Positions 29,635 through 45,747 are shown, counted from the stretch's first letter. The stretch: 64,000 nucleotides of DNA from Rubritalea squalenifaciens DSM 18772 (GCF_900141815.1 NZ_FQYR01000004.1:434001-498000); one strand, 5' to 3'. Numbers and translations are program-made. The notes: generated by a model not told the origin, from the letters alone.

Positions 29635-31428
29635 TCAGTTCTTCATCAAGCTGTTGAGAATGCGTTTACTGTATGAGTCGGAGAGGTGGGGGCTTTTCTT
29701 GGCTTTCAAGCCTTCCAAGGAGGGAAGCGCATACCCTGCGGCTCTGGCATTGGCGAGGATGTTTAGGGCGACTAGCTGAGTAGCTGCATTTATCTCAGGT
29801 GCCATTGCAATGTCGACGACTTGCTGAAGGGCCTTACCGCGAGCTGTGGTATCATGCCGTGTCATGATATCCAGTGCTCGAAGACGAACGGTCATATTGG
29901 CCGATTGTGTGGCATCGGCTATATGGGCTTTGTTTTGTAAGTAGCTACCTTGGCCGTATGTTAGGACCTGCTGCATCTGCCAGTACTGGATGAGCGGGTG
30001 GACTCCCTCAGGTAGGTAGGCAGGGTCTACCATTTTCACCAATTCTGAGAGCGGGTATTTGGTAGGGCTTAAGGCGATGTCGTATCCATTGGTGTTCTCT
30101 CCTTCTACTAGATCCAGAAGGTAACTCTCTGGCATGAAGCCCAAATCACGAGTGTCTAGCATATGCTTCATGAGGTGGCCGCGCATTTCCTCAATCACTT
30201 TCTGATATTTCTTGTTAGAAGCGAGGTTCACTGTTTCGTGTGGATCAGCTTCCAGATTGAAAAGCTCTTCTGCAGGGTGAGGCTGCCAGAAGGCTGCTTG
30301 AGTAGCATTGAGTTTACCTGCTAGGAAGAGCTCTCTCCAGATGCGAGTGGTATTGGTCTTCAGTTGGAATTCTAATTCCTGACCATGAGGAAGGTGAGGC
30401 ATGAAGTTGCGGATGTACACGTACTTACCTTTGCGGATGGAGCGGCAGAGATCGTATTTCTCATCCATGCGAGCTTTGAAGCCCATGCTGTGGTTGGGGA
30501 AAGTTTTGGTGAAGAAGGAATGACCAGGCATGGTTTCTTGAGCTGGCAAACCTGCAAGTGTGAGCACTGTGGGGGCGAGATCGACAAAACTAACAGGCCG
30601 GTCTGAAGTTCCTCCTCGCTGATAAATACCATTGGCTAGATTCTCCCACTTCTTGGGAATATGAACGATCATTGGTACATGGAGACCGGACCAACCTGGA
30701 TACCGTTTGGAGCGTGGCATGCCGCTGCCGTGGTCGGCATAGAAAAAGACGATCGTGTTTTCTGCTTCGCCAGCTTTCTCTAATTCGTCGAGATGCTTCT
30801 GGACAAACTGATCCACCAGAGTCAGGCGGTCATAGTACTGAGCCCAGTCTTTGCGGCTCTTTGGAGTATCGGGGTGATAGGGCGGGATGGGAGCTCCAGC
30901 TGAATCATGGTGAGGGTTTTTATTGGCGTTGCGAATCTGACTTTCGTGGGAGACGGTGGTGTTGAAGACGGCGAAAAAGGGTTGTCCGGGTTTGCGGTTT
31001 TTCCAGTGTGCTTTAGCCGAAGAATCGTTCCACGGTTTGTTGGGCTGGTAGAGGTTATAGTCTTCTTTTGAATTATTCGTGCAGTAGTAGCCGGCTTCCT
31101 TGAGGTAGGAGGGAAAGAGTTGCAGGGAGGTGGGGATGGCGGCTTTGGAGCGCATGTATTCGGCCCCCAGAGAGGTGGGGTACATGCCTGTGATGATGGT
31201 CGTGCGTGCTGGTGCGCAGACCGGGGCATTCGAGGATGCTACCGTGTAGAGCAGCGATTTTTTCGCCAGGGCATCAATGTGAGGAGTAGTGGCGTAAGTG
31301 TCTCCATAGCAACCTAGGTGAGGGCCATGATCTTCAGCGGTGAGCCAGAGGATATTTGGTTTTTCCTGAGCGTGCGTCACCGCTGTCAGGATGAGTGAGA
31401 AAATGAGGTGGAAGAGTTTGCGCTTCAT
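29635..31428 (-). CDS. Secreted sulfatase, N-sulfoglucosamine sulfohydrolase-like
   Basis: 597 residues with a signal peptide (Ala-Val-Thr-His-Ala-Gln). The sulfatase core starts ILWLTAEDHGPHLGCYGD. Cys71 in CAPAR is the formylglycine precursor of the CxPxR signature. Further metal and sulfate residues are seen in Tyr-Ala-Asp-His-Gly-Ser-Gly near 235 and in Gly-Trp-Ser-Gly-Leu-His. The last 110 residues are helical and HEAT-like (Val-Arg-Leu-Arg-Ala-Leu-Asp-Ile-Met), beyond the usual sulfatase C-domain. It may desulfate marine polysaccharides or glycosaminoglycans (inference from family). A formylglycine-generating enzyme must be encoded elsewhere. Confidence 0.92.
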   Translation of the reverse strand: MKRKLFHLIFSLILTAVTHAQEKPNILWLTAEDHGPHLGCYGDTYATTPHIDALAKKSLLYTVASSNAPVCAPARTTIITGMYPTSLGAEYMRSKAAIPTSLQLFPSYLKEAGYYCTNNSKEDYNLYQPNKPWNDSSAKAHWKNRKPGQPFFAVFNTTVSHESQIRNANKNPHHDSAGAPIPPYHPDTPKSRKDWAQYYDRLTLVDQFVQKHLDELEKAGEAENTIVFFYADHGSGMPRSKRYPGWSGLHVPMIVHIPKKWENLANGIYQRGGTSDRPVSFVDLAPTVLTLAGLPAQETMPGHSFFTKTFPNHSMGFKARMDEKYDLCRSIRKGKYVYIRNFMPHLPHGQELEFQLKTNTTRIWRELFLAGKLNATQAAFWQPHPAEELFNLEADPHETVNLASNKKYQKVIEEMRGHLMKHMLDTRDLGFMPESYLLDLVEGENTNGYDIALSPTKYPLSELVKMVDPAYLPEGVHPLIQYWQMQQVLTYGQGSYLQNKAHIADATQSANMTVRLRALDIMTRHDTTARGKALQQVVDIAMAPEINAATQLVALNILANARAAGYALPSLEGLKAKKSPHLSDSYSKRILNSLMKN

Positions 31429-39463: not shown

Positions 39464-39486
39464 TGGTGTTCATTGAACCAAAAAGA

Positions 39487-39517
39487 AAAGGCTCAGGGTG
39501 TTCCCTGAGCCTTTTTT
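39487..39517. terminator. Bidirectional terminator
   Basis: Perfect stem aaaaggctcaggg/ccctgagcctttt with a TGTT loop, flanked by A-run and T-run. It serves the small gene and the convergent large fusion gene. Confidence 0.92.
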
Positions 39518-39538: not shown

Positions 39539-42500
39539 TTACTCTACGATCAGTTCGCCCTTCATGACGGTCCAGTGGCCGGGGAAGGTGCAGACGAATG
39601 GGTACTTGCCTGGCTTCTTCGGAGCGATGAAGCGCAGAGTCTGTGAACTGTGCGGTTCTAGCAGGCGTGAGTGGTGGAGGATGCGCTTGTCATCAGGCAC
39701 GTAGTGCTTCTTGGCGCCATTCGCATCCTTGGCCATGTCATTGGCAGCCATGCCAATTTCTTGGATCGGGGTGCCTTGCTCAAGGATGAGTACGTTGTGC
39801 TGGGTGGCGTCCGGGTTATTGAAGATAAACTTCACTGGTGCGCCGGCTTTCACCTTAAGCGTGGATTTATCAAACTGAATGCGTTCTGGCACGCAGCCGA
39901 GTTGCACGGTTTGAAGTCCCTTTTGTTTGTCGAAGGCTTTCTCCTCGGCGGTGCGTGTATCCTTAGCTTTCTTCTCCTCTTTGCCGAGACTCTTGAGCTG
40001 CTTCGGAGTATCTTGAGTCCAGTAGGGGCGGAGCGCCTTGGATTCAAAGGAAGTCTGAATGGCATAGGTGAGGTGTTTGCCTGCTGGTTGTGCCAGCACT
40101 GGCTGGATAGCATCGAAGGCTTCCTGTGTGCCGATGTAGCTTGAGCAGATGACGGCTTCTCGCCGAACGTGCTGAGATGGGTGCTCGGCGCCGTACTTCA
40201 GAAGAGCGTTCACTTTTTCAGCTGGCATTTCCTCTGCCCAGAAGCGCAGCGGGCCATAGGCGGCTGCAGCGATGAGGTGGTTGTCTGAATGGATGAGGAT
40301 GCGGACGAGATCCGACTTTTTCTTACCGATGCCTTGGTATACCCAGAGAGCTTCGAGCAAGGCGTGCTGGTCTTTGCTGTTTCTAACAGTCCAGGTGTTC
40401 AGGGCATTGAGGACTTCGTTCTTGTCGCGGGTACGGAGCTCGCGGCGGGCCCAGTTGCGGACGCGGATCTGGCCTGACTTAAGGTGATTGAGCAGCTCGA
40501 CAACGGTCGCGTCTTCGATCTTGGGAGCATCGGCGAGTGTGGCACCTTTGGGAACGACGCGCCAGATGCGGCCAGCCTTGCGGTCGCGACGTGGATCACG
40601 CAGGGAGTACTGGGCGTGACCTTTGACCGGGTTGTACCAGTCACAGATGTACATGGCTCCGCGTGGGCCGAACTTGAGGTCGACTGGGATGAAGGAAAGA
40701 TTGGTAGAGAAGATGAGGTCGAATTTCTTCTCTTCGGCGAAGTGATCTTCCTTCTCGGTCCAGGTGTGGAACTCGACGTTGTTAGTGGGTTTGTAGCGGT
40801 TCTTTACGAAGCCGCCCTGCATTTCCTCAGGCCAGAAGGAGAAGTCCACGAAGTCGTGACCACAGACGCCGGAGTAGGCTTGGATGCCCTGTGGCTTAGG
40901 ATGGAGCTGAGGGTAGGGGGCGTTGGTGGCGTGGAAAGTGGAGCCGAAGACCGGGTGAGAGGCTACATGGTTGCCCCATTTGTCGAAGGTCACACCCCAT
41001 GGGTTGGTGTTAAAGTAAGAACCGAAGTCGGTGAGCTTGCGGGTCTTTGGATTATAGAGGAACCAAGATGAGTCTCTAACGCGGATCGGGCCGTATGGTG
41101 TTTCGACCTGGGAATGATGGAAGACGGACTCACGGAAGAGGAGGTCTCCGCCTGGTGTCCAAGCGAAGTCATGCAGGGAATGGTGGGAGTCTTCACAGCC
41201 GAATCCGGTGTAAATGATTTCACTGGTGTCGGCTTTGTCGTCACCATCGGTGTCCTTCAGGTAGGTGAGGTGTGGCTGTTCGGAGCAGTAGACACCGCCT
41301 TCACCATCGAGCACGAAGGAAAGGGGGATGTGCAGGTCGTCAGCAAAGGTGGTGCACTTGTCTGCCTTGCCGTTCTGGTCAGTATCTTCGAGAATGATGA
41401 TCTTATCAGCAGGCTTTTGGCCTGGGTAGATGTGTGGGTAGGCGGTAGAGCAGGAGACCCAGAGTCGTCCTTTGGCATCCCAACGGATGGAGATCGGGCA
41501 TGCCAATTCCGGGAAGTCTTTCTCAGAGGCGAAGCAGTTGACCTCGAATCGTGGATCAATCTTGAAAGCTTTGAGTTCGTCCTCAGGGCTCATGAACTCG
41601 TTTGCGCCGATGGCGAGCAGGACGTCGTCCATCTTAGGAAGATTAGAGTCGTCCGGTTGGGTAGGTGTGCCTGCGGCAGTGGCGTGAATGGCTTTGAAGC
41701 GGTTCTCGACCATCAGGTCAAAGTTGCGCATGGCCGGGAGGAAGTCGAGATAGCCATAGGAGCCGCTGCGACCACCAACGTAGTAGAAGGTATTGAGCGG
41801 ACGGTAGCGGTAGAAGAACTGGTCGGCTTTGTCGATGACGAGAGCGCGGAGGCCTTCATTGATTGATGGGTCCTCCAGATTGAAGAGGGACTTGAAGGTG
41901 TTCTTGGCAAATATGGAGTGGCCGTATTCAGTGAGGCTATTGCCGTCTGAGGTGCGGTTCAGCTTGACTCCCTTGCCTCCTGAATAAGAACTGTCAATGA
42001 ATGCGATTTTGTTAGAAGTGGCTACCTCCTTCATCGCCTCGGTGTAGAGGGCGATGTTCTTATTGTTCATCTCAGCAGCATTTACCTGCTCAGTATCTTC
42101 GTTCGGTGTAGGGGAGAGGAGAACGATCTGTGGTGCAGTCTTGCCGTTGTAGGCGCGTGACTTGAGATGTTTGAGGAATTTGTCGAGGCGCTGCTTGAAG
42201 GATTCCAGTCCCTCTTTGCCTGCAAAGGATTCGTTGTAGCCAAAGGCTGCGATGATGACGTCTGTCTTATAGTAGAGTAGATGTTGGTCGAGAGTACCGA
42301 AGTTGTCCGGGCGAGGCATGATGTCGATCTCATCGGCTGGCCAAGCAAAGTTACGTACTTCGAGTTCGTGCTTTGGTAAGTGCTGATGGATGAGAGTCTC
42401 AAGGTGACCGTAGCGACGTTCATTGTCTAACAACAGGTTTCCGATAAGAGCTATATGGCTCTTTGGGGCGATTTCAAGAGGCAGCTTGGTCTCAATAGGA

Positions 42501-43630
42501 GCGGTAGCCTTTGGCTTAGGAGATGATTTCTTGTTGATGTAGTACTGGGCCAATTTGGGATCTTTCTTAGCCTTTGGGCCGTCCAGTTTGGTGTACTTGG
42601 CGTCTTTCTTCTTGGCCGGCTTTGCCTTTGGTTCAGGCATAATAGGAGACTTGAGGTCCTGTAGGTCGGCTGGCTTCACGTTCTTTACATGGCCGCCCAT
42701 TTTGAAGGTAGTCGGCTTGTAAGGACCTACGAAGTCGATGTTGGCCTTGGCGTCGATCTTGTCTTCCAGGCCGATTGCCCAGAAAACACCGTTGAGCACG
42801 AGGCGACGGTAGTCGGGATCCAGAATGTCTTCGGATGCACCTTGTGTGGAGTGGAAGACGCGAGCTTGCTTGCCATTCTTAGCAGTGTAGTGGCGTGTCC
42901 AAGTACAAGGCACTGGCGGTTTCTTGGCATCCAGGGCCGCGTCCTTTTTCATGGAGACCATGGGCTGGGAATTGGCGAGTACGGTGAAGTCATCACCAGC
43001 GATGCCATTGTAGCCACCTGCATAGCAGAAGGCACCATCGCCTACACCGCGAAGGATTGGGTGTTTCTTTTGCTCAGGAATGAGTTGAATGCGGGTGCCT
43101 TGCTTGTGGTTTCTTCCGTAGTGGCCCACCCAGGTGTTTCCAAGGATCTGGTGACCGAAGCCTTTCTCATAATCTTTGCCAGCGTACTTGAAGTCGAAGC
43201 GGGAGAATTTTTTGCCCTTGGGAATTTTAAAGGCGTGGGACGAAGTGCGCAGGCCGACCACTGGACCTCCGCGATCCAGATAGTCTACAATGTGCTGCAT
43301 CTGGTCATCTGGAAGATCAAGAAAGCGGGTAAAGATCACCATCAGGTCTGCCTCCTTAAGAGCTTCCAGCCCTTTGATATTGGAGGCTCCTGCTTCAATG
43401 TTGCCATTTTTATCGACTCCAAACAGGACGGTGGTTTTGAAACCCTGGCGTTCTGCAAGAATGCGGGCCAGAGCTGGGCAAGTCTGCTCGGCGCGGTACT
43501 CATGGTCTGAGGCTACAAAGACGATGTGCTTGCCCTTGCCGGGGCCCGACTTTCCATCGTAGCTGATTTGAGCGTGCAGGATTAGGGGGCAGAGTAGGAA
43601 GAGGAGTAAGAGGAGTAAGATTGATTTCAT
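39539..43630 (-). CDS. ThuA / SGNH / PVC-type dehydrogenase / HEAT / cupredoxin fusion protein
   Basis: 1363 residues in one uninterrupted frame, with a signal peptide (about 1-21). Domains in order: ThuA-like (about 32-300; Ala-Ser-Asp-His-Glu-Tyr-Arg near 40-46); an SGNH hydrolase-like domain (about 390-620) in which the Ser block reads Ile-Gly-Asn-Leu-Leu-Leu-Asp-Asn and the His block Thr-Glu-Tyr-Gly-His; a PVC-type membrane-bound dehydrogenase beta-propeller (about 690-1060, Trp-Asp-Ala-Lys-Gly-Arg-Leu-Trp-Val, Cys-Asp-Trp-Tyr-Asn-Pro); HEAT-like repeats (about 1075-1200); and a C-terminal cupredoxin with a full type 1 copper set, His1278, Cys1347, His1352, Met1356. Other proteins of this class often end in a CxxCH heme domain; none is seen, so copper may replace heme as the electron acceptor. 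Probably a periplasmic sugar-related oxidase or dehydrogenase; substrate unknown. Four bases separate it from the upstream DsbD-N-like gene. Confidence 0.88.
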   Translation of the reverse strand: MKSILLLLLLFLLCPLILHAQISYDGKSGPGKGKHIVFVASDHEYRAEQTCPALARILAERQGFKTTVLFGVDKNGNIEAGASNIKGLEALKEADLMVIFTRFLDLPDDQMQHIVDYLDRGGPVVGLRTSSHAFKIPKGKKFSRFDFKYAGKDYEKGFGHQILGNTWVGHYGRNHKQGTRIQLIPEQKKHPILRGVGDGAFCYAGGYNGIAGDDFTVLANSQPMVSMKKDAALDAKKPPVPCTWTRHYTAKNGKQARVFHSTQGASEDILDPDYRRLVLNGVFWAIGLEDKIDAKANIDFVGPYKPTTFKMGGHVKNVKPADLQDLKSPIMPEPKAKPAKKKDAKYTKLDGPKAKKDPKLAQYYINKKSSPKPKATAPIETKLPLEIAPKSHIALIGNLLLDNERRYGHLETLIHQHLPKHELEVRNFAWPADEIDIMPRPDNFGTLDQHLLYYKTDVIIAAFGYNESFAGKEGLESFKQRLDKFLKHLKSRAYNGKTAPQIVLLSPTPNEDTEQVNAAEMNNKNIALYTEAMKEVATSNKIAFIDSSYSGGKGVKLNRTSDGNSLTEYGHSIFAKNTFKSLFNLEDPSINEGLRALVIDKADQFFYRYRPLNTFYYVGGRSGSYGYLDFLPAMRNFDLMVENRFKAIHATAAGTPTQPDDSNLPKMDDVLLAIGANEFMSPEDELKAFKIDPRFEVNCFASEKDFPELACPISIRWDAKGRLWVSCSTAYPHIYPGQKPADKIIILEDTDQNGKADKCTTFADDLHIPLSFVLDGEGGVYCSEQPHLTYLKDTDGDDKADTSEIIYTGFGCEDSHHSLHDFAWTPGGDLLFRESVFHHSQVETPYGPIRVRDSSWFLYNPKTRKLTDFGSYFNTNPWGVTFDKWGNHVASHPVFGSTFHATNAPYPQLHPKPQGIQAYSGVCGHDFVDFSFWPEEMQGGFVKNRYKPTNNVEFHTWTEKEDHFAEEKKFDLIFSTNLSFIPVDLKFGPRGAMYICDWYNPVKGHAQYSLRDPRRDRKAGRIWRVVPKGATLADAPKIEDATVVELLNHLKSGQIRVRNWARRELRTRDKNEVLNALNTWTVRNSKDQHALLEALWVYQGIGKKKSDLVRILIHSDNHLIAAAAYGPLRFWAEEMPAEKVNALLKYGAEHPSQHVRREAVICSSYIGTQEAFDAIQPVLAQPAGKHLTYAIQTSFESKALRPYWTQDTPKQLKSLGKEEKKAKDTRTAEEKAFDKQKGLQTVQLGCVPERIQFDKSTLKVKAGAPVKFIFNNPDATQHNVLILEQGTPIQEIGMAANDMAKDANGAKKHYVPDDKRILHHSRLLEPHSSQTLRFIAPKKPGKYPFVCTFPGHWTVMKGELIVE

Positions 43631-43634
43631 AGAA

Positions 43635-44453
43635 TTACTGTGAGTGCAAATTTTTGTACACTGGGCAGATACTTACATACTGATTGTCGGCTTTCAGGAT
43701 TAACGGGAGATTTGTGCTTTTTGCGTCATCGAGCTCTGAGCGCGGAACTGTGACGATGATGCTGCCATCTTCTTGATACGTGATCAGCTGCTTCTTGTCT
43801 GAGCTGATCTGACCGTCTTCAGAAAATAAGTAGATGTTCTTAGGCTTGGTGTTTCTTGGAGGTCTGATTAACACTTTGATTTGAGGAGCGCCGATTTTGC
43901 TGAGGACGGAAGCTTTCCAGAGGGGATTAGCTTTGGGAATTTGCTGCCGGGCTTGTTCAATGAGCTTGAGGTGGACTGGGGATGCTACGGGGGTGTCGGA
44001 GACCTGAAGTGGTAACTTGAGGGTTTCCGTGCCCGGAAAACATTCTTTGGCGCAGCACATCCACGAGGCAAAGGCCTCTACAGAAATACTGTCAGTGGAG
44101 ATGGTCTTCGGTGGATTTAAGGTAACCAGGAGTGTGACATCGCGCTCGTAACCGTGGCAGGAGTACTCAGCCATGAAGCTCTTCTCAGGATAGGGCCATT
44201 GAATCTCTGAAACTGAAAAACCATCCGGAAGTTTCCATTCCAGTTGGGTAGGCATGCCTACGATACCCGGACTCTTCCAGTAGGTGTGAAAGCCCGGCTT
44301 GTGCTTGAGGTGGACCCCCAGAGTCACCGGCTTTCCTGGAGTGATGGTCTTGCTCTCTGCGATCAGAGAGATTTCCAAGCCATCATGCTCACCAGCCATC
44401 AGTATACTTGGCAGGAGGGTGGAGATTAGTAGACAAAAGTGCGTGAGCTTCAT
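43635..44453 (-). CDS. DsbD N-terminal-domain-like periplasmic protein
   Basis: 272 residues from ATG 44453 (Met-Lys-Leu-Thr-His), which gives a clear signal peptide. The body matches the DsbD alpha-domain pattern: Ile-Thr-Pro-Gly-Lys-Pro, Lys-Pro-Gly-Phe-His-Thr-Tyr-Trp-Lys, and the Cys cluster Trp-Met-Cys-Cys-Ala-Lys-Glu-Cys-Phe-Pro-Gly where DsbD carries its redox pair. It lacks the eight-helix membrane domain and the thioredoxin domain, so it can only relay thiol electrons, or bind a substrate, if a partner exists. It is the first gene of an operon with the large cupredoxin fusion, only four bases upstream, which suggests a shared redox or copper-site job (inference). Confidence 0.82.
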   Translation of the reverse strand: MKLTHFCLLISTLLPSILMAGEHDGLEISLIAESKTITPGKPVTLGVHLKHKPGFHTYWKSPGIVGMPTQLEWKLPDGFSVSEIQWPYPEKSFMAEYSCHGYERDVTLLVTLNPPKTISTDSISVEAFASWMCCAKECFPGTETLKLPLQVSDTPVASPVHLKLIEQARQQIPKANPLWKASVLSKIGAPQIKVLIRPPRNTKPKNIYLFSEDGQISSDKKQLITYQEDGSIIVTVPRSELDDAKSTNLPLILKADNQYVSICPVYKNLHSQ

Positions 44454-44856
44454 TTTTAACAGTCTGTTTAACTTAGCGTGCATCTGACTATACGATACAT
44501 GACAAATTCCAGGAACATTTCAGCAAGTCTTGGTAACTTTAGGATGCATCGGAAAATCAAGTAGTTATGGTTTGATTTATACTTAAGTTAATTATTTACA
44601 ACGCTTTGATGTCTGTTCTTGAGGGAGTATTAGAACAAGAGTGTGCAAGCTCCAGTCCACTAGTTAAAAAGCTTTTCATGAACGGATTATTAGAATTTGT
44701 TCATGTATTAGGATCAGTGAGTTATCATGTTTTTTGGATAGTGGTGATATTTTGAACAATGTCTTGACGAGGGCCTCATTTTTAGAGAAACGAAGTGACC
44801 CCGATAACTTGGCGAGAGTTAGCAAAACTGCCTCAAACCTTTATCCTCCCGAAGAA
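44454..44856. other. Intergenic region upstream of a PEP-CTERM gene
   Basis: About 400 A+T-rich bases between divergent genes. An inverted repeat catgaac/gttcatg (44677-44683 and 44699-44705, 15-base spacer) is the only clear structure. An open frame runs from 44734 into the PEP-CTERM gene but the extra 41 codons lack a signal peptide and are taken as leader. Confidence 0.5.
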
Positions 44857-45747
44857 ATGAAATTAAGAAACTTGTGTATAGGTACAGCTCTCGTGCTGGC
44901 CTCTAGTAGTGTGTCCTACGCAGCAGTCAGCATCGCGTCTGACTCCTTAAATAGTTCTTGGACTCAGATGACCTATGCTGGTCTTGGTGAATATGATTAC
45001 ATTCAAGATGAGCAGGCGACAAATTCCGAGTCTGATATCGTAGGTAATACCAACAACTCCTCCTTCTATACCTTTTACGATACTAATGGTACTCTCCCTA
45101 CCAATGATGATGTAATCGGCTATCGTGTGCGAGTTGCTGGTGATAAGAAGAGTGATGGTCAGTTCGGCCAGGTGGTATTCGTAGGTATGGATCTCGATGG
45201 AGATTTTGCCCTCGATGTCTTTGCCGGTGTGTCCTTTTCGGGATCTACCGAAATCATCGGTTTGTTTGAGGCAGGTAATGACCTGAACAACTCACCGAGT
45301 ACGACCTCCATCAGCGGCATCAGCTCCACGTATCAGAATCCTGCGGTAGACGGTGATAACTTCAGCTTCAGAGCGGTTACCGTTGCAGATGGTGGTACGA
45401 CAACCGATGTTGATGCAGGTAATCCTGGGAAGGCATCAGGAACTGATTTCTACATCAGCTTCTCCATGCCCTACAGTGATCTGGCCGGCTTCGCAGCAGA
45501 CAAAGGCATCGCCTTTGGTCCGGATACTCCAATCAGCTACGTATTGGCTACAGCCACTCAGGACAACAGCTTGAACCAGGACTTCAATGGTCTGCCAAAG
45601 AACTTCGATGGCACCACAACTTGGGAAGAGCACGGTGTTCTCACTGAGCCAAAGACCGTAACAGGTGCATCCGTACCTGAACCAAGCTCTGTGTTTCTCA
45701 CAGGTTTGGCTGGACTTGCTTTCCTGTTCAGACGCTCCCGTAAATAA
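44857..45747 (+). CDS. PEP-CTERM sorting-domain secreted protein
   Basis: 296 residues from ATG 44857 (Met-Lys-Leu-Arg-Asn), the start that yields a signal peptide ending near Ser-Tyr-Ala-Ala. The body is Asp/Ser/Thr/Gly rich and beta-type, with Asp-Leu-Asp-Gly-Asp near 102-107 resembling a calcium-binding loop. The tail VPEPSSVFLTGLAGLAFLFR and final Arg-Ser-Arg-Lys is a PEP-CTERM signal. Body function unknown. A strong terminator follows. Confidence 0.87.
   Translation: MKLRNLCIGTALVLASSSVSYAAVSIASDSLNSSWTQMTYAGLGEYDYIQDEQATNSESDIVGNTNNSSFYTFYDTNGTLPTNDDVIGYRVRVAGDKKSDGQFGQVVFVGMDLDGDFALDVFAGVSFSGSTEIIGLFEAGNDLNNSPSTTSISGISSTYQNPAVDGDNFSFRAVTVADGGTTTDVDAGNPGKASGTDFYISFSMPYSDLAGFAADKGIAFGPDTPISYVLATATQDNSLNQDFNGLPKNFDGTTTWEEHGVLTEPKTVTGASVPEPSSVFLTGLAGLAFLFRRSRK

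Follow-up and report, generated by a model that had tools for sequence, protein, structure and literature searches.

A cupredoxin-ended PVC-type multi-domain protein and its lone ScsB-alpha-like neighbor in Rubritalea squalenifaciens

Planctomycetota and Verrucomicrobiota encode PVC-type CxxCH proteins in abundance. These proteins are captured by the NCBIfam model TIGR02604 (Piru_Ver_Nterm, the N-terminal domain of the 'PVC-type heme-binding CxxCH protein') and by the Pfam model PF23500 (DUF7133), often carry SGNH-like and HEAT parts beside their propeller and end in a cytochrome c; no chemistry assigned to them was found in the open-licence literature. Auracyanin A and azurin, on the other hand, are free copper carriers. 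The AA12 pyranose dehydrogenase of Coprinopsis cinerea (6jt5) joins a propeller to an electron-carrier domain, in this case one with heme b, and its PQQ-binding residues are Arg430-Asn431 and His560-x-x-Trp563-Asn564 (PMC6881789). Two thiol-redox systems with links to copper should also be considered. ScsB, like DsbD, combines an alpha domain with transmembrane and thioredoxin domains, and tight binding of Cu(I) is known for both ScsB and ScsC (PMC8900818), while TlpA of Bradyrhizobium acts as a reductant of the CuA subunit and of ScoI prior to their metallation (PMC6696091).

The window, namely the whole stretch of 64,000 nucleotides that was analyzed, belongs to a 4.3-Mb draft genome, probably of Akkermansiaceae (GTDB), with the closest named loci being found in an Akkermansiaceae MAG and in Verrucomicrobiales MAGs. 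Our analysis concerns a two-gene unit, the features of which are collected in Table 1. The original prediction had read the larger gene as a single frame of 1363 residues joining ThuA, SGNH, PVC-type propeller, HEAT and cupredoxin parts, and this reading is confirmed by the ORF, by Pfam and by NCBIfam. Pfam places ThuA at residues 48-285, Lipase_GDSL_2 at 405-547, DUF7133 at 681-893 with a second stretch, a weak HEAT_2 match at 1109-1183 and Copper-bind at 1243-1363. PF23500 scores 188 against a cut-off of 27, and TIGR02604 reaches 182 bits against a cut-off of 122. As had been claimed, a scan of the 1363-residue sequence finds no CxxCH at all, with a cupredoxin being present instead of the heme domain of the family title. 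The stop codon of the upstream gene is followed by four bases and then by the ATG of the large gene, and the N-termini of both encoded proteins resemble Sec signal peptides, as judged by eye from their hydrophobic character. A gene for a protein with a PEP-CTERM sorting signal adjoins the pair in divergent orientation (44734-45747 of the window, + strand).

Table 1 Features of the two-gene unit, with positions counted from the first nucleotide of the window.
Feature	Position	Strand	Basis or remark
Predicted secreted ThuA/SGNH-like/PVC propeller/HEAT/cupredoxin protein	39539..43630	-	ORF of 1363 aa; Pfam; NCBIfam
ThuA domain, residues 48-285	42776..43489	-	PF06283, E 3.2e-10; own gene in many relatives
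SGNH/GDSL-like domain, ~residues 381-600	41831..42490	-	PF13472; Axe2-like fold (Foldseek)
PVC-type beta-propeller, DUF7133/Piru_Ver_Nterm, ~residues 641-1080	40391..41710	-	PF23500, E 3.8e-55; TIGR02604, E 1.6e-53
HEAT-repeat segment, ~residues 1085-1220	39971..40378	-	Weak PF13646; all-helical in AlphaFold2 model
C-terminal cupredoxin, auracyanin/azurin type, residues 1238-1363	39542..39919	-	PF00127; 2aan, E 1.3e-13 by sequence
Predicted copper ligand His1278, codon	39797..39799	-	Invariant in 56 relatives
Predicted copper ligand loop C1347-TFPG-H1352-WTV-M1356	39563..39592	-	Cys, His and Met invariant in 56 relatives
Terminator-like hairpin with T-rich tail, 13-pair stem	39486..39515	-	Directly after large gene; ends two-gene unit
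Lone DsbD-N/ScsB-alpha-like protein, predicted exported, 282 aa	43635..44483	-	PF11412, E 1.9e-16; internal Met at 44453 may be true start
Redox pair C144-AKE-C148 of ScsB-alpha-like protein	44040..44054	-	Both Cys invariant in 37 relatives

Residues 356-1363 were modeled with AlphaFold2 together with 56 relatives (pLDDT 88.6, pTM 0.86). When the model was searched with Foldseek, the C-terminus matched auracyanins and azurins, with auracyanin A (2aan) giving a TM-score of 0.90 and an rmsd of 1.7 Å, so that a C-terminus without a cupredoxin fold is excluded at the level of structure prediction. The complete set of His1278, Cys1347, His1352 and Met1356 that had been predicted is present, and the 56 relatives retain these ligands in the CTFPGHxxxM spacing that characterizes type-1 cupredoxins. 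By fold and ligands, the C-terminal domain is thus a type-1 cupredoxin, for which copper binding is predicted. It shares with auracyanin A and azurin the fold, the His-Cys-His-Met ligands and the loop, yet those proteins are free carriers, whereas here the cupredoxin is the terminal domain of a 1363-residue protein. Assignment to the azurin equivalog TIGR02695 was rejected, given a score of 31 bits against a cut-off of 105. A second cupredoxin is found in the same genome at the end of a 999-residue frame (G000:C5:275577-275951).

Dozens of relatives of the large protein are found in Verrucomicrobiota and Planctomycetota, and remoter ones occur in Acidobacteriota and Bacteroidota. About 11 close relatives, and two proteins from Planctomycetota, carry ThuA as a fused domain; elsewhere it is encoded by a separate upstream gene (loci L016, L024 and L150). 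The 'megaprotein' architecture is therefore real but not a one-off, and is best regarded as a short operon that is fused in some relatives and not in others. The C-termini are of three kinds, namely cytochrome c only, cupredoxin only (in Verrucomicrobiota, including the clade of the window protein) and cupredoxin followed by cytochrome c (in Planctomycetota). That related PVC-type proteins often end in CxxCH, as originally stated, is illustrated by the window genome itself, which encodes eight DUF7133 paralogs of the cytochrome c only kind. On a quick tree of 86 propellers, which contains some long branches, the type of tail changes at least seven times. These exchanges of one carrier for another, together with the presence of both in series, speak most strongly for electron transport by the copper domain. 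From such sequence comparisons, the view that the cupredoxin serves as a built-in electron exit, replacing the C-terminal cytochrome c of the paralogs, appears well supported. In two loci from Planctomycetota (L075 and L077), two different PVC-type proteins with cupredoxin and cytochrome c are encoded in tandem, those of L075 being 1689 and 1274 residues long. The same swap is seen among DUF6797 proteins, one of which ends in a cupredoxin and lies beside a lone ScsB-alpha gene, while another has cytochrome c domains (L149:9369-12272 and L162:2145-6347).

The proposal that the cupredoxin receives its electrons from the propeller stands in so far as an electron-exit role is concerned; a dehydrogenase as their source could not be established. 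Among solved folds, the PQQ domain of the pyranose dehydrogenase 6jt5 comes closest to the propeller (E 2.6e-6), with the comparison to this six-bladed AA12 fold giving a TMt of 0.46 and a high rmsd in a multi-domain, and overall weak, superposition. AA12 enzymes likewise combine a propeller with an electron-carrier domain, although the carrier there is heme b rather than copper. A pattern search of the sequences of 86 propellers found neither the Arg-Asn pair nor the H-x-x-W-N motif of the AA12 PQQ site; T/A/P-N-P occupies the position where the R-N pair is expected, and HGxWN does not occur. A PQQ cofactor is accordingly not supported and, with these motifs missing, 'dehydrogenase' is a fold-level guess and the oxidation chemistry is putative. 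The missing motifs, and the fact that our literature search turned up no characterized member of the family, would fit a propeller that is not a redox domain at all but binds or hydrolyzes its substrate, with the cupredoxin or cytochrome c tail serving, for example, copper storage or docking. We consider this somewhat unlikely, as the C-terminus holds only electron carriers, and these interchangeably, as the closest propeller fold is that of a PQQ domain, and as a motif scan finds a D-x-H-H motif and a C-terminal G-R-I-W/Y-R motif conserved across the propellers of the family. For the SGNH part of the AlphaFold2 model, Foldseek points to Axe2-type esterases. In the alignment column of the block-I serine (residue 399), however, Thr is found 23 times, Leu 21 times and Gly nine times, and Ser never, such that the domain is probably not an active esterase.

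The original prediction further described the protein encoded four bases upstream as DsbD-alpha-like and devoid of membrane and thioredoxin parts. Indeed, Pfam finds only DsbD_N in its 282 residues, with no transmembrane beta or thioredoxin gamma domain. However, ScsB-alpha-like, rather than like E. coli DsbD, is the more accurate description, as the one convincing solved relative of the AlphaFold2 model (pLDDT 88.6) is the N-terminal domain of ScsB from Proteus mirabilis (6c29; Foldseek E 6.6e-15, TM 0.67/0.76), with sequence comparison in agreement. The protein shares with the alpha domains of ScsB and DsbD the Ig-like fold and the pair of redox cysteines but, unlike these, stands alone. On reading through the gene contexts examined, no ScsC-like neighbor was noticed. 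The reduction of copper-site proteins by TlpA and the binding of Cu(I) by ScsB and ScsC offer precedents for thiol reduction or Cu(I) carriage by such a partner. The TlpA fold is that of thioredoxin and is unrelated to the partner, and only the proposed task, namely reducing a copper-site Cys ahead of metallation, is alike. A role of the partner in maturation of the copper site is plausible.

The same two-gene order was sought in other genomes and is conserved only in patches. Strict adjacency of the partner to a window-type protein, or, in G080, to the separate ThuA gene that precedes this protein, is seen in five genomes (that of the window, G048, G024, G027 and G080). The exact pair thus occurs in about five of some 40 genomes with a close-type protein, and about 17 show near-neighbor linkage. 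Genomes of genus g16 keep the two genes some 2.6 kb from each other, with an opposite-strand sulfatase gene in between; on that strand of the interval (L155:6158-8776 and orthologs), a protein combining 3-keto-disaccharide hydrolase, sulfatase and HEAT parts is encoded. No linkage of the two genes is seen in genus g9, which has about 20 carriers. There, the lone ScsB-alpha gene lies amid genes for DUF1501, LysM, amino acid kinase and TonB-receptor proteins, with no cupredoxin nearby (L131-L140). When proximity was counted by hand from match tables and locus contexts, 27 of 83 genomes turned out to have the partner no more than 5 kb from a cupredoxin gene, as compared to 1.2 expected; this is about 20 times chance and leads us to reject chance proximity, although it should be noted that related genomes are not independent. 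The nearby cupredoxins are of four kinds (the window-type protein, a second SGNH-PVC-cupredoxin subfamily, DUF6797-cupredoxin proteins and stand-alone azurin-like genes) and span 11 genus-by-partner combinations. The common factor of the partner loci is the cupredoxin rather than ThuA. As a reason for the link to DsbD-N, ThuA was rejected, since genomes G009, G022 and G032 have ThuA orthologs but neither of the two genes.

At the level of whole genomes, cupredoxins were scored with profile A3 and lone ScsB-alpha proteins with profile A2 (E <= 1e-60, a threshold that was set after the scores had been seen, in the gap separating these proteins from full-length DsbD). Among 195 genomes of the family, a cupredoxin is encoded by 83 of the 85 with lone ScsB-alpha, as compared to 23 of the 110 without it. 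The two exceptions, positive for the partner and lacking a cupredoxin, are genomes that are only 76-77% complete. The exact p within genera is 8e-10, or 2.5e-15 when only strong cupredoxin matches are considered, although kinship within genera means that these values overstate independence. Outside the family, all seven lone-positive genomes of a class-level sample have a cupredoxin, while many cupredoxin genomes are without the partner. Lone ScsB-alpha is present in at least nine of 12 other Verrucomicrobiota genomes that were chosen for encoding the cupredoxin protein, and in none of eight individually chosen genomes from Planctomycetota and Acidobacteriota that have a cupredoxin, mostly with an additional cytochrome c. 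The dependence is therefore one-way and limited by clade. The association that had been anticipated between the partner and the cupredoxin is thus borne out both across genomes and by proximity. One could argue that this merely reflects lineage or lifestyle, with marine glycan degraders having acquired both genes without any functional link between them. The Planctomycetota that have the cupredoxin protein and not the partner, and genus g3, which has neither cupredoxin nor lone ScsB-alpha, are in line with such a view. Yet the two genes co-vary inside genera g1, g7, g10, g12 and g13, and the excess proximity involves four families of partners, which makes this the least probable of the explanations weighed here.

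Sulfatases form a second group of neighbors. About 19 of 70 ScsB-alpha loci have a sulfatase gene directly upstream in the same orientation, and all seven of these sulfatases that were examined have a C-x-P/A-x-R active site. The partner might then mainly serve Cys-type sulfatases by keeping the catalytic Cys reduced until it is converted to formylglycine, with the link to cupredoxins being a by-product of shared glycan-degradation loci. This would agree with the roughly 58 sulfatase matches in the window genome, and with a 709-residue frame in a 77% complete draft genome (L208:5407-7536, G137), in which a Cys-type sulfatase reads through into a lone ScsB-alpha domain as a possible natural fusion. 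However, all 18 tested genomes that lack both the cupredoxin and lone ScsB-alpha have 3-73 sulfatase matches each, so that sulfatases do not require the partner and are weakened as its sole reason. Partner presence instead tracks cupredoxins, and no sulfatase is adjacent to the gene pair in the window. We thus hold this explanation to be unlikely. Elsewhere in the window, a single 608-residue frame contains a sulfatase match that is split in two (30550-31359; G000:C4:464550-465359). Both types of client would share a dependence on a single free Cys, be it a copper ligand or a future formylglycine. Together with the varied neighbors (sulfatase, cupredoxin, ThuA and DUF1501), this would suit a thiol reductant that acts in the periplasm on exported free-Cys proteins in general, rather than a factor dedicated to copper sites. 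From a general reductant, the near-strict confinement to cupredoxin genomes would not be expected, and we judge it to be just as improbable as a partner serving mainly sulfatases.

A role in copper-site maturation also has points that count against it, namely the adjacency in only about five genomes, the unlinked genes of g9, the Cys-type sulfatase neighbors, the absence of the partner from all eight Planctomycetota and Acidobacteriota genomes and the 23 family genomes with a cupredoxin alone. Nonetheless, the explanation we favor, and to which we give about an even chance as a whole, is that a sulfatase-rich, probably glycan-degrading bacterium exports the large protein as a multi-domain, copper-tailed PVC-type redox protein, and that the ScsB-alpha partner of this protein keeps the copper Cys reduced, possibly with a handover of Cu(I). 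Oxidation at the propeller would deliver electrons to the type-1 copper and from there to a periplasmic acceptor, with the electron flow, the substrate and the acceptor all being putative. The CxxxC of the ScsB-alpha-like protein would keep exported free cysteines, foremost the copper-ligand Cys, reduced before metallation, such that the copper site can form; the protein may also hand over Cu(I), and its own re-reduction might come from the membrane part of a full-length DsbD whose gene lies elsewhere. More tentatively, and with less confidence than we place in this explanation for the window, lone ScsB-alpha could be a dedicated maturation factor, as a thiol reductant, a Cu(I) donor or both, for type-1 copper proteins of Verrucomicrobiota, serving giant PVC-type enzymes in which heme was swapped for copper.

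The two-gene module had been suggested to be new. Its constituent parts belong to known families and the exact pair is patchy, but neither the swap of heme for cupredoxin in PVC-type proteins nor a lone ScsB-alpha protein that tracks cupredoxins was found described in the open-licence literature, much subscription literature lying outside the search, and both thus appear to be undescribed. To our knowledge, no dedicated helper for loading azurin-like sites has been established, and the cupredoxin-tracking ScsB-alpha-like gene is a directly testable candidate for such a helper. That one C-terminal position may hold a cytochrome c, a cupredoxin or the two together offers, in turn, a natural experiment on how electrons exit PVC-type enzymes.
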